Positions 17,051-40,768 of a stretch of 42,627 bases of DNA are shown here, piece by piece. The position numbers were made by a program, and so were the translations under genes. The stretch's first letter is position 1, and each line of letters starts with the position of its first letter. Location: assembly GCA_036510875.1 (NCBI GenBank), contig DATCDE010000071.1:1-42627 (forward strand), read 5' to 3'. The notes below the pieces were generated by a model, which saw nothing but the letters and a program-made list of their open reading frames with translations, had not been told where the DNA came from and made no database searches. This stretch comes from Actinomycetes bacterium (lineage in GTDB: Bacteria; Actinomycetota; Actinomycetes; Prado026).

Positions 17051-17060
17051 CCCGGGTCAG
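17047..17060. repeat. 14-bp perfect palindrome covering the pyk and bldD stop codons
   Basis: CTGACCCGGGTCAG is fully self-complementary. Its left arm holds the pyk TGA (17048-17050) and its right arm the bldD TGA on the minus strand (17057-17059). It could serve as a short two-way terminator hairpin, but there is no U-tract and the loop would be tight. The function is unproven. Confidence 0.5.
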
Positions 17061-17548
17061 TCCGTGACGGCGCGGCGGGCGTCGGCATCCAGCACGCCCC
17101 AGATGATGAACTGCTCGACCAGGGCGGTCGGTGACGCGTCGTAGATCACGGCCAGGGTGCGCAGGTCCTCCTGCCGGACCGACAGCACCCGCCCGTTGTA
17201 GTCGCCGCGCTGGCTCTGGATGGTCGCCACGTAGCGGGCCAGCGGGCCGGCCTTCTCGGCCGGGACGGCGGACAGCCGCTCCAGGTCGAGCACCAGCCGC
17301 GGCGGCGCCTCGGCCACGCCGGTCGGCAGCGATCCGGGCAGCAGCTCGCTGACCGGGACGCCGAAGAAGTCGGCCAGCTCGGCCAGCTTCTGCACCGTGA
17401 CGGCGCGGTCACCGCGCTCGTAGGAGCCGACCACGACCGCCTTCCAGCGGCCCTGGCTCTTCTCCTCCACCCCGTGCAGCGACAGCCCCTGCTGTGTGCG
17501 GATCGCCCGTAGGCGAGCGCCGAGCGCTCTGCCGTAGTCGGACGTCAT
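17057..17548 (-). CDS. bldD: Developmental regulator BldD (c-di-GMP-binding)
   Basis: BldD is the XRE-family repressor that, dimerised by tetrameric c-di-GMP, holds streptomycetes in vegetative growth; many non-sporulating actinobacteria also carry it. The 163-residue product has an N-terminal helix-turn-helix (about 8-70) nearly identical in my memory to Streptomyces BldD (GLSLHGVEEKSQGRWKAVV). It has a linker and a C-terminal ligand domain. The c-di-GMP signature RGD-X8-RQxD is intact: Arg114, Asp116, Arg125, Asp128, with Glu instead of Asp at 127. The ATG start has GAGGGGGG 4-11 nt upstream. Its promoter carries an exact BldD operator, so it probably represses itself. bldD next to pyrR matches Streptomyces gene order. 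Confidence 0.96.
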   Translation of the reverse strand: MTSDYGRALGARLRAIRTQQGLSLHGVEEKSQGRWKAVVVGSYERGDRAVTVQKLAELADFFGVPVSELLPGSLPTGVAEAPPRLVLDLERLSAVPAEKAGPLARYVATIQSQRGDYNGRVLSVRQEDLRTLAVIYDASPTALVEQFIIWGVLDADARRAVTD

Positions 17549-17561
17549 GGACCCCCCTCAA

Positions 17562-17596
17562 TCACCGGCGGCCCCCCCTCACCGGCGACCGCCGGT
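17562..17596 (-). repeat. Hairpin and duplicated purine-rich segment in the bldD 5' UTR
   Basis: On the minus strand the bldD leader holds two near-copies of a unit CCGGTGA(TT)GAGGGGGG, the second being the ribosome-binding site and the first an upstream copy without TTGA spacing. Just upstream, ACCGGC-GACC-GCCGGT (17581-17596) is a 6-bp hairpin with a 4-nt loop. The leader could therefore fold so that one or other purine run is exposed. Confidence 0.45.
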
Positions 17597-17604
17597 GCTG
17601 GACC

Positions 17605-17619
17605 GTGACGCTGCGTGAC
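17605..17619. promoter_or_regulatory. BldD operator (autoregulatory)
   Basis: The core 17606-17618, TGACGCTGCGTGA, matches every fixed position of the published Streptomyces BldD consensus NTNACNC(A/T)GNGTNAN. It overlaps the end of the bldD -10 hexamer and the predicted start site, the expected place for a repressor. Confidence 0.8.
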
Positions 17620-17646
17620 GCTACGGAGGGTGATCAAGGACGTCAA
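17618..17646 (-). promoter_or_regulatory. bldD promoter
   Basis: On the minus strand TTGACG (17641-17646) and TAGCGT (17618-17623) are separated by exactly 17 nt, the best sigma-70-type promoter in the window. Transcription should start near 17611, within the BldD operator, giving a leader of about 60 nt. Confidence 0.75.
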
Positions 17647-17693
17647 GGCGGATGGGTGCTAACGGTCCGTTCGGACGACCCCGACCCGGCTGG

Positions 17694-19308
<1,615 letters not shown>

Positions 19309-36091: not shown

Positions 36092-37455
36092 CCGCCGGCC
36101 AGCGCTACCGCCGGCCGCGGCCGGACGCCGCCCGCCGGACCGCCTTCGACCTGCTGCGCGCCGTCGACGAGCGGGACGCCTACGCCAACCTCGCGCTGCC
36201 CGCGCTGATCCGGGAGCGCCGGCTGGACACCCGTGACGCCGCCTTCGCCACCGAGCTGGCCTACGGCACGCTGCGCGGCCGGGGCAGCTACGACGCGGTC
36301 CTCGCCGCCTGCACCGACCGGGGCCTCGACGCCGTCGACCCGCCGGTGCTCGACCTGGTCCGGATGGGGGCGCACCAGCTGTTGTCGATGCGCACACCGT
36401 CGCACGCCGCCGTCGGGGCCACCGTTGAGCTGGCCAGGGCCGCCGTGGGCGACGGCCGGGCCAAGTTCGTCAACGCCGTCCTGCGGCGGGTCGCCGAGCG
36501 GGACCTCGAAACCTGGCTGGCCGTCGTCGCGCCGCCCTACGACAGCGATCCGGTGGGCCACCTGAGCATCGTGCACTCCCACCCCCGCTGGGTGGTGGAC
36601 GTCTTCCGGGACGCCCTCGGCGGCTCGCTCGAGGAGACCGCCGCCCTGCTGGCCGCGGACAACGAGCGGCCGGTGGTGACCTTGGTGGCCCGGCGCTGCC
36701 CCGTCGAAGAGCTCATCGAGCTGGGCGCCGAGCCGGGCCGCTGGTCGAGGTTCGCGGCCCGGTGGCCGGGCGGCGACCCGGCGGCGCTGGCCCCGGTGCG
36801 CGACGGCCGCGCCGGCGTCCAGGACGAGGGCAGCCAGCTGATGGCCATCGCGCTGGCCGACGCGGCCCTGGACGACGGGCCGGACCGCCGGTGGCTGGAC
36901 CTGTGCGCCGGGCCCGGCGGCAAGGCGGCGCTGCTGGGCGCGCTGGCCATGGCGCGCGGCGGTGCCCTGCTCGCGGTCGAGCGGCAGCCGCACCGGGCCA
37001 GGCTGGTCGCCACGGCGGCGGGGGAGACCGCAGCGGTCGTCGTCGCGGACGGGCTGCACCCGGCCTGGCCCGCGGGCGGCTTCGACCGGGTGCTGGCCGA
37101 CGTCCCGTGCACCGGGCTGGGGGCGCTGCGCCGCCGCCCGGAGAGCCGCTGGCGGCGCCAGCCCGCCGACCTGGCCCGGCTGTCCCCGCTGCAGCGCGGC
37201 CTGCTGACCTCGGCGTTGGACGCCGCCCGGCCCGGAGGGCTGGTCGCCTACGTCACCTGCTCGCCGCACCTGGCCGAGACCAAGTTCGTCGTCGCCGACG
37301 TGCTGGCCGGCCGGGACGACGTCGAACGGGTCGACGCCCGGCCGCTGCTCGACGGACTGCCCGATCTCGGTCCCGGGCCGGACGTGCAGCTGTGGCCGCA
37401 CCGGCACGGCACCGACGCGATGTACCTGGCGCTACTGCGCCGCCGCTCAGGCTGA
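36088..37455 (+). CDS. rsmB: 16S rRNA (cytosine-C5) methyltransferase RsmB
   Basis: RsmB methylates C967 of 16S rRNA (E. coli numbering) with SAM. The 455-residue product has an N-terminal NusB-like RNA-binding domain (about 12-140) and a methyltransferase domain. Motifs in order are QDEGSQLM near 250, the SAM loop [14 protein letters not shown] near 271, motif [11 protein letters not shown] (release Cys) near 343 and motif [13 protein letters not shown] (catalytic Cys) near 388. The GTG start overlaps the fmt stop; GGGGGAG lies 12 nt upstream. Its last 9 nt overlap the end of the convergent diguanylate cyclase gene. Confidence 0.95.
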
Positions 37456-38637
37456 CCGCGCGGCCACCCGGTTCTTGCCGGCCGCCTTCGCCGCATACAG
37501 CCGGCGGTCGGCCTCCCGGAACACGTGCCAGACCGTGTCGTGGCCGACGTCGTCGGCGACCCCGATGCTCACGGTCACCTGCGCTCCGGGCCGGACCTCG
37601 TGCCACGGCTCGGCGGCCACCCGCTCGCGGATCCGCTCGCACAGCTCGGCGGCCGCCTCCGCCTCGGCGTTCGGCAGCACGATGGCCAGCTCCTCGCCGC
37701 CGTAGCGGGCCACCAGGTCGGCGCCCCGGGTGCCGTCCACCAGGATCCGGGCCACCCGGCGCAGCACCTCGTCGCCCGCCTCGTGGCCGAAGTGGTCGTT
37801 GACCAGCTTGAAGTCGTCGAGGTCGAGCAGCACCACGCTGATCGGCCGTTCGTAGCGCACCGCCTCCTCGAACATCCGCACCACCTCGGCGTCCAGGTGC
37901 CGCCGGTTGTGCAGGCCGGTGAGCGGGTCCCGCAGGGACAGCTCGGCCAGCCGCCGGGCCAGCGCCGTTTGGGTGGCCAGCGCCGACTGCAGCTCCGCCG
38001 TCCGCTGCTCGACCCGCTCCTCCAGATCGGCGTTCATGGCCCGCAGGTCCGCGGTGAGCTGGGCCGACCGCAGCCGCTCGGCGTCCGCCTCGTCGAAGGA
38101 CTCCCGGACGGCGTACGCCGTGAGGCCGGCCACCACCGCGGTGAACAGGCACATGAGCCCGGCGTAGAGCACCAGTGAGTGGATGCTGACCTCGGTGATC
38201 GCCGCGCTCCGGCTGACATCGTCCAGCAGCGCCAGGATGGCCAGGCTGCCCAGCAGCGCGCCCACCACATGCCGGACGCCGAGGGTGGCGCCGGCCATGC
38301 TCATGAGCAGCGCCACGAACACCGGCGCGTTGTCGACCCGGCCGGTGGCGGTCACCGAGGTGACCAGGACGACGGCGAACATGAGCAGCACCAGCCAGCT
38401 GCCCAGCTCGACCAGCCCGCGCCGGATCAGGGCCACGATGCCGCCGGCCGCGACCATCGCGATCGAGATCGCCCCGGCGCTGGCCACCGAGTCGGGGCGG
38501 ATCAGGGCCACCGGCAGGTACAGCGCAGCGGCCAACATCAGCCCCGCGACCATGGTGACCAGCACCCGGCCGCGCCGGCGCAGCCCGCGGTCGGGTGCGT
38601 GCACCCTGACCAACCAGCCGTAGCCGCGCTGGAGCAC
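37447..38637 (-). CDS. Membrane-bound GGDEF diguanylate cyclase
   Basis: Diguanylate cyclases make c-di-GMP from two GTP. This 396-residue product has six predicted membrane helices (about 25-45, 54-71, 78-95, 104-121, 124-138, 154-177), a coiled-coil linker (about 178-235) and a GGDEF domain. RDPLTGLHNRR opens that domain, and the active-site loop is RYGGEEL (GGEEL 313-317). The inhibitory I-site RxxD is present as RGAD at 304-307, five residues before GG, so product inhibition is likely. I chose GTG 38637 because GGGGGAGG lies 8 nt upstream; GTG 38673 would add 12 residues but has no ribosome site. No EAL domain is present. A BldD-like operator lies about 80 bp upstream. Confidence 0.92.
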   Translation of the reverse strand: MLQRGYGWLVRVHAPDRGLRRRGRVLVTMVAGLMLAAALYLPVALIRPDSVASAGAISIAMVAAGGIVALIRRGLVELGSWLVLLMFAVVLVTSVTATGRVDNAPVFVALLMSMAGATLGVRHVVGALLGSLAILALLDDVSRSAAITEVSIHSLVLYAGLMCLFTAVVAGLTAYAVRESFDEADAERLRSAQLTADLRAMNADLEERVEQRTAELQSALATQTALARRLAELSLRDPLTGLHNRRHLDAEVVRMFEEAVRYERPISVVLLDLDDFKLVNDHFGHEAGDEVLRRVARILVDGTRGADLVARYGGEELAIVLPNAEAEAAAELCERIRERVAAEPWHEVRPGAQVTVSIGVADDVGHDTVWHVFREADRRLYAAKAAGKNRVAARSA

Positions 38638-38713
38638 GAGGCTGTCCTCCCCCGGAAACGATGTGAGCCCCACGGTGTGACGGGGCAGCGCGTCCCGGAC
38701 CCCTGCTCCAAAC

Positions 38714-39466: not shown

Positions 39467-39484
39467 GGCCCCCGCGTAACAGCA

Positions 39485-39610
39485 GCGTGCTCCGGGGTCG
39501 GTGAAAGTCCGAACCGGCGGTGACAGTCCGCGACCCGGCCGAAGCCATCGGCCGGTTGACCCGGTGGAACTCCGGGACCGACGGTGAGAGTCCGGATGGG
39601 AGGCGCACGC
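39485..39610 (+). ncRNA. FMN riboswitch (RFN element)
   Basis: The aptamer is closed by P1 GCGTGC/GCACGC (39485-39490 with 39605-39610). Inside are the conserved RFN blocks in order: GGTGAAAGTCCGAACCGGCGG, shifted one base from consensus length, AGTCCGCGACCCG, GGTGGAACTCCGGGACCGACGG and GAGAGTCCGGATGGGAGG. The variable arm is GGCCGAAGCCATCGGCC (39537-39553). FMN binding should lower ribD-ribE-ribBA expression. Confidence 0.95.
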
Positions 39611-39679
39611 GGCGGGAACCGTCCCGGGTCGTCCCGCGCCGCCGTCCCTCGGCGACGCACCGCCCCGGCCGCGTCCCGT

Positions 39680-39712
39680 GTCCCCCGGAGCCCGCCCAAG
39701 CGGGAAGGGGAC
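39680..39712 (+). promoter_or_regulatory. Ribosome-site-masking hairpin (riboswitch expression platform)
   Basis: GTCCCC (39680-39685) can pair with GGGGAC (39707-39712), and CCCGC with GCGGG (39691-39695 with 39700-39704) around a CCAA loop. The lower stem covers the ribD Shine-Dalgarno AAGGGGA (39705-39711), whose GTG follows at 39716. No U-tract is present, so control is probably at translation. Confidence 0.6.
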
Positions 39713-39715
39713 CAG

Positions 39716-40768
39716 GTGGCCACCGAGCACGAGCGTGCCGCGATGCTGCGCGCCCTCGAGCTGGCCGCGACCCCGGGCGTCCCGACCGGGCCCAACCCCC
39801 GGGTCGGCTGCGTGCTGCTGGGCCCGGACGGCACGGTGCTGGCCACCGGCTACCACCGCGGTGCCGGCAGCCCGCACGCCGAGGTCGACGCGCTGGCGCA
39901 GGCCGGGTCGGCGGCCGTTGGCAGCACCGCGGTCGTCACCCTCGAGCCGTGCAACCACACCGGCCGCACCGGCCCGTGTGCGCAGGCGCTGGTGGCCGCC
40001 GGGGTCCGCCGGGTGGTCTTCGCCCAGGCCGACACCAACCCGGTCGCGTCCGGCGGGGCCGCCGCCCTGCGCGCGGCCGGGGTTGACGTCGAGGGCGGGC
40101 TGCTGTCCGAGCGGGCCGCCGCGCTCAACGAGACCTGGACTTTCGCACTGGCCCACGGCCGCCCGTTCGTCACCTGGAAGCTCGCGGCCAGCCTGGACGG
40201 CCGCAGCGCCGCGGCCGACGGCAGCAGCCGGTGGATCACCTCCGAGCCGGCCAGGGCCGACGTGCACGCGCTGCGGGCCCGGGTGGACGCCGTCCTCGTC
40301 GGCACCGGCACGGCGCTGGCCGACGACCCGCAGCTGACCGTCCGCGACGCCGACGGCCACCCAGCCGGGCGCCAGCCGCTGCGCGTGGTGGTGGGCCGGC
40401 GGCCGCTGCCGCAGGGCGCCCGGTTGCAGGACGGCTCCGCGCCGACCGCCGTCTACCCGACCCATGACCTGGCCGCCGTCCTGGCCGACCTGCACGACCG
40501 CGACGTCCAGCACGCCCTGCTCGAGGGCGGCCCCACCCTGGCCGGCGCCTTCCTACGGGCCGGGCTCGTGGACCGGGTGGTGGCCTACCTTGCGCCGGTG
40601 CTGCTCGGCGCCGGGCCGGCCGCCCTCGGCGACGCCGGCGTCGCCACCATCGCGCAGGCGCTGCGGCTGCACGTGGAGGACGTCACCGCCCTCGGGCCGG
40701 ACCTGCGGGTCACCGCGCGCCCGGTTCGTCCCGACTCCGTTCCGTCCGTCAACCCGGGAGGTCACTAG
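39716..40768 (+). CDS. ribD: Bifunctional riboflavin deaminase / reductase
   Basis: RibD deaminates and then reduces the pyrimidine made by GTP cyclohydrolase II, the second and third steps of riboflavin synthesis. The 350-residue product has an N-terminal zinc deaminase (His54 and Glu56 in SPHAEVDAL; Cys79 and Cys88 in EPCNHTGRTGPC) and a C-terminal NADPH reductase (KLAASLDGR near 150, SSRWITS near 165, LLEGGPTLAGAF near 265). GTG 39716 is chosen because the masked Shine-Dalgarno AAGGGGA is 4-5 nt upstream; the frame is open further upstream only through the riboswitch. Confidence 0.95.
   Translation: MATEHERAAMLRALELAATPGVPTGPNPRVGCVLLGPDGTVLATGYHRGAGSPHAEVDALAQAGSAAVGSTAVVTLEPCNHTGRTGPCAQALVAAGVRRVVFAQADTNPVASGGAAALRAAGVDVEGGLLSERAAALNETWTFALAHGRPFVTWKLAASLDGRSAAADGSSRWITSEPARADVHALRARVDAVLVGTGTALADDPQLTVRDADGHPAGRQPLRVVVGRRPLPQGARLQDGSAPTAVYPTHDLAAVLADLHDRDVQHALLEGGPTLAGAFLRAGLVDRVVAYLAPVLLGAGPAALGDAGVATIAQALRLHVEDVTALGPDLRVTARPVRPDSVPSVNPGGH

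Follow-up and report, generated by a model that had tools for sequence, protein, structure and literature searches.

The promoter predicted for bldD in the DNA stretch analysed here (42,627 nt in full, referred to as the window) carries a BldD box that, as we infer from its sequence and setting, very probably constitutes the autoregulatory operator of the gene, at which c-di-GMP-bound BldD would block RNA polymerase. The sequences themselves, the promoter register, its conservation, the c-di-GMP motif and the GGDEF domains form the observed basis of this reading. Comparison was made over a class sample of 148 genomes, 103 of which gave a match; 83 orthologues from 29 families were counted, leaving out 20 genomes of families f20 and f25 with distant matches only, as well as all extra paralogues. 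The features of the locus are the following.

17057 to 17548, minus strand: bldD, 163 aa, with matches to NF050110, PF21179 and PDB chains, and carrying RGD-X8-RQED
17606 to 17618, minus strand: BldD box, slot 2, TCACGCAGCGTCA read in bldD orientation, at about -7 to +6 of the predicted start; register in 47 of 83 orthologues
17611, minus strand: transcription start of bldD, predicted from the -10 spacing
17618 to 17623, minus strand: -10 element TAGCGT, its last base being the first base of slot 2
17621 to 17633, minus strand: BldD box, slot 1, TCACCCTCCGTAG, matching at 7 of 9 positions and starting 15 bp upstream of slot 2
17641 to 17646, minus strand: -35 element TTGACG; TTGAC lies at one of two fixed box distances in 57 of 83 orthologues
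17763 to 18335, plus strand: pyrR, divergent from bldD, the synteny partner, followed by pyrB

On reading the sequence, TGACGCTGCGTGA (17606 to 17618, minus strand) agrees with the BldD box at 9 of 9 fixed positions, which bears out the claim of a first-pass annotation that all fixed positions of the consensus are matched. The nine-position form TNACNCWGNGTNA, which we take to be the original BldD logo, has its single match in the window at this site with 0.08 expected (at least one match in 7 of 100 shuffles), in agreement with the earlier estimate of well below one exact match per window. The exact 13-mer exists in one copy in the 4.05-Mb source assembly. The looser form TNAC(N)5GTNA, the den Hengst consensus as quoted in PMC4151990, likewise matches the window only at 17606 to 17618. 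Because 2.57 chance matches to it are expected from shuffled windows, the loose motif by itself proves nothing, and the case rests on position and conservation. The box in the 21-mer of the BldD co-crystal differs from the window box at one free position only (PMC4151990).

The gene is identified as bldD by the NCBIfam equivalog NF050110 (292.1 bits, cut-off 250), by the C-terminal domain PF21179 found in its product and by PDB chains matching both the C-terminal and the DNA-binding domain; compared to PDB 2ewt, the DNA-binding domain has 62 of 71 residues identical, with no difference in residues 13 to 53. The product contains RGD-YNGRVLSV-RQED, an instance of RXD-X8-RXXD, the C-terminal c-di-GMP motif of BldD, which was found in 83 of 83 class orthologues. 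Sixteen GGDEF stretches above cut-off were found in the source genome (two of which are neighbouring pieces on contig C271), and c-di-GMP is therefore very likely made. The window itself contains one such domain (148.6 bits), at the C terminus of a 408-aa frame found at 37447 to 38673 on the minus strand, 20 kb from bldD; if active, it would make the BldD ligand. An FMN riboswitch (39484 to 39611, plus strand, 91.8 bits) is found beside a frame at 39584 to 40768 that looks RibD-type from its translation.

The elements, spacer and direction of the promoter are as first annotated: TTGACG and TAGCGT, separated by 17 bp, read toward bldD, with the box on the predicted start, which falls near 17611 and 63 bp upstream of the ATG. 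The label of a textbook promoter was too strong, however, for the -10 element agrees with TATAAT at 3 of 6 positions and a generic sigma-70 scan of 17400 to 17900 called 0 promoters. The predicted promoter is credible because TANNNT fills the -10 slot in 49 of the 57 orthologues registered by TTGAC and box (10 of the 57 via slot 1 alone), among which the spacer measures 17 bp in 31, 18 bp in 21, 16 bp in 4 and 19 bp in 1. The BldD box was found on the predicted core promoter of bldD in a register common to these 57 of 83 orthologues.

Within a range of -60 to 60 over the 83 orthologues, the only distances between TTGAC and box common to more than two of them were 12, 13, 14, 28 and 29 bp. A box located 12 to 14 or 28 to 30 bp from TTGAC is present in 22 of 29 families and absent in 26 of the 83 orthologues. 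By strict core, under which the window bldD counts as slot 2 only, slot 1 is occupied in 27 of the 83, slot 2 in 47, both in 17 and either in 57. Since the distance from slot 2 to the start codon, as set by alignment to the window BldD and without individual checking, varies from 46 to 210 bp across registered orthologues, the register is held by function rather than by lack of divergence. Information content in the registered orthologues is highest at the -35 element, the -10 element and the half-sites; a few bases further downstream it has dropped to background.

The box annotated at first as a single site is real; it is not alone, being one half of a tandem with slot 1 at 17621 to 17633, and both slots together read TCACCCTCCGTAGcgTCACGCAGCGTCA. 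The second box, 15 bp upstream, was seen on aligning the orthologous promoters of 66 loci side by side. Its right half overlaps the -10 element. When a pair is defined as two boxes matching at 7 or more of 9 positions each, with at least one matching at 8 or more, boxes exactly 15 bp apart occur in 32 of 83 orthologues, against an expectation of 0.00 from shuffles; of the remaining spacings between 3 and 40, none is seen in more than 4 orthologues. The tandem pattern is found once in the source assembly, at the bldD promoter. A scan of 13 whole genomes, hand-picked and mostly from families having the tandem, matched the bldD promoter in 12, together with five other sites in all (three in genome G014, one in G092 and one in G132); the pattern read backwards gave three strand-matches in two genomes of the 13. 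The bldD promoter missed is that of G014, whose slot 2 ends differently.

The comparison across actinobacteria proposed with the first annotation gave, besides the promoter register in 57 of 83 orthologues, a TNAC-N5-GTNA core within 450 bp upstream of bldD in 80 of 83 orthologues and 29 of 29 families (2.6 expected from shuffles), a count that takes in sites outside the promoter register, notably in family f18. Loss of the motif in close relatives, named beforehand as the observation that would speak against the site, was not seen: both same-family genomes (2 of 2) have the core box in both slots, the core of slot 1 included. All 10 genomes of f18 lack a box in the promoter register and have a core box about 230 bp upstream (10 of 10). 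Examined apart from the 83 were 10 of 10 genomes of f20, 6 of 10 of f25, and 9 paralogues. The core box was found in 0 of 10 for f20, which is without bldD-pyrR synteny, and in 1 of 6 for f25, a family of small genomes that keeps the synteny in 6 of 6 examined; a loose core lies upstream of 3 of the 9 paralogues.

Outside the class, 63 matches from 51 genomes were listed, and 40 matches from 39 genomes were examined. The c-di-GMP motif is present in 38 of these 40 homologues and a core box in 10; eight of the 10 belong to families f78, f62 and f70 (8 of 9 there), and f40 has 0 of 9. The 10 boxes all lie outside the 12-14 and 28-30 bp distances from TTGAC or TTGCC. The homologues concerned in f78, f62 and f70 (L192, L193, L195-L198, L202, L205) have 54 to 58 per cent identity besides the upstream core box, and judged from their boxes the BldD self-loop may be older than the class.

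The proposed mechanism extends what is established for Streptomyces, from whose literature the c-di-GMP-driven dimer and the repression are carried over by analogy. At high c-di-GMP, a BldD dimer joined by four c-di-GMP molecules would bind slot 2 and thereby straddle the transcription start. BldD might also occupy slot 1 (-22 to -10), overlapping the -10 element, more weakly or cooperatively. Protein bound at -7 to +6 and at -22 to -10 would keep RNA polymerase out or stall it, leaving the promoter unopened, and BldD would in this way keep its own level down through a negative autoregulation tied to c-di-GMP. When c-di-GMP falls, BldD would leave and the bldD promoter would open. For the present organism, we infer binding, repression, the start site and any cooperativity. 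Counting against the operator reading are the imperfect slot 1 of the window (7 of 9), the 26 of 83 orthologues without a registered box, the scarcity of the core in f20 and f25, the unregistered boxes outside the class, MtrA binding at this place in S. coelicolor, the chance frequency of the loose core together with its presence at 3 of 9 paralogues, and the empty sigma-70 scan. The earlier suggestion of a conserved bldD autorepression circuit is supported, as an interpretation, by the NF050110 identity, the box on the predicted promoter and the conservation. Precedent comes from S. coelicolor, where bldD is among the genes named as BldD-repressed (PMC4255298), and from S. erythraea, whose BldD is described as having a stronger effect at its own promoter than at the ery promoters (PMC4258057, with reference to an earlier paper).

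One alternative, with MtrA as the chief competitor of BldD, is an overlay of the two regulators. BldD autorepression at this site could be accompanied by MtrA repression, for which S. coelicolor offers the precedent (PMC5650626); MtrA is encoded in the source genome (393.5 bits against a cut-off of 300). Scored with the consensus taken from PMC5650626 (direct repeats KTRACC-N5-GTKAC, a loose pattern), the window promoter holds no strong MtrA match: it reaches 8 of 11 at most, once over slot 2 and once some 150 bp from there, whereas two f19 promoters, among 7 of the 83 orthologues scored, reach 10 of 11. Because the consensus is loose, these scores are not decisive, and we regard a shared site as unlikely though still plausible.

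A second alternative, that the direct repeat GTGAC-N5-GTGAC with its 10-bp period is mainly an MtrA site and that MtrA instead of BldD represses bldD, seems highly improbable. The window does have GTGAC words at 17605 and 17615, and the MtrA and BldD motifs are described as alike (PMC10714768). In S. coelicolor, the MtrA footprint on the bldD promoter extends from -28 to -4, bldD expression is up without MtrA, and one of the two MtrA sites there has its half-sites one base closer than usual (all PMC5650626). Across the 83 orthologues, however, half-sites are spaced by N5 in 80 (2.6 expected), compared to 18 (4.1 expected) for the N6 that is usual for MtrA. MtrA as the sole reader of the bldD site thus appears weakened, the 5-bp half-site spacing favouring BldD. 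A chance match in a GC-rich promoter, for which the frequency of the loose box in shuffled windows might be cited, is rejected as next to impossible in view of the rarity of the strict box, the conservation, the TTGAC register in 22 of 29 families, the genome-unique tandem and the information-content peaks.

A divergent pyrR accompanies bldD in 80 of the 83 class orthologues and at 80 of 80 named loci, most of them from Streptomyces. Its control by BldD through the same boxes is unsupported: they end 130 to 145 bp short of its start codon, and the gene is preceded by a leader of its own resembling a PyrR site (17711 to 17761, plus strand; RF00515 at 28.4 bits, below the gathering threshold of 54, E 0.062). 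Genome-wide, the nine-position box has 12 matches in the source assembly against 0 for the pattern read backwards, and 12 in the two same-family genomes, 6 in each. The 12 source matches provide nothing firm as a regulon: two lie in one repeat, some are inside long frames, and by eye no developmental gene was recognised beside them. The repeated pair (L243 and L250, on contigs C48 and C310 of G000) is one sequence, the last 120 bases of the two contigs being identical. At L247, an exact box at 2012 lies just upstream of a frame that reads as RodZ-type HTH-like, next to a frame of FtsK-like appearance.

The developmental gene whiG was used for control. In the same genomes, the strict core was found upstream of bldD in 25 of 25 and upstream of whiG in 0 of 25, with the orthologue present in 25 of 31 genomes and 550 bp taken before an aligned start (455 bp at one locus) that falls inside the gene in many of the 25. 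The source genome has a WhiG-type sigma gene (281.1 bits), adjoining what appears from its translation to be a recombinase gene, and no core box was found in the surrounding 3.2 kb. Since Streptomyces BldD is reported to bind whiG (PMC4151990) and the f19 genome is nonetheless among the 0 of 25, the strict core misses at least some real sites. As a motif-level chance control, whiG supports specificity at bldD; it does not show whiG to be free of BldD.

The wider interpretation, which we weigh as evenly poised, is that the bldD operator might represent an ancient two-slot device, its box starting 12 to 14 or 28 to 30 bp from TTGAC and its slots 15 bp apart, in which a lineage retains either slot or both and the strong site moves between slots, while self-repression is mostly kept. 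If true, the self-loop would form the stable centre of the BldD network, varying less than developmental targets such as whiG, and would function in an organism whose assembly yielded no SsgA-like sporulation protein (10 of 10 other genomes searched alongside had one), an absence that is unproven because the assembly is 95 per cent complete. The single-site claim is turned into a testable promoter rule for a c-di-GMP master regulator, two slots at two fixed distances from the -35 element, and self-limitation of BldD is suggested as a widely kept part of the network. Families f18, f20 and f25, in which the promoter-register loop has seemingly been lost, moved or was never present, could be compared.

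Autoregulation of bldD is already known, and boxes were reported earlier in other sporulating actinobacteria; with both in print, that the circuit is conserved is in itself no new finding. The present analysis contributes the second slot, a geometry locked to the promoter, counts across 29 families and the lineages that deviate. No paper on the two-slot geometry across families was recognised from titles and abstracts; the primary footprint papers lay outside that scope, and no priority is claimed. On the bldD promoter of S. coelicolor, the MtrA site resembles the window element in overlapping the same -10 region (PMC5650626) and differs from the BldD box in that MtrA reads direct repeats, mostly with one more base between the half-sites. 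Saccharopolyspora erythraea BldD provides a parallel for action on the own promoter outside Streptomyces (PMC4258057); the family of that species, guessed to be f18, differs in having its core box about 230 bp upstream, outside the promoter register. The Streptomyces bldD operator is likewise a close relative, with the gene, the divergent pyrR, the TNAC-N5-GTNA box and the tandem arrangement in common (80 of 80 named loci, most of them Streptomyces). Streptomycete loci have the exact box in slot 1 (THACGCTGCGTAA) and a weaker one in slot 2 (TCACAGTGAGTYA in those printed), whereas the window bldD has its exact box in slot 2 and a degenerate one in slot 1.
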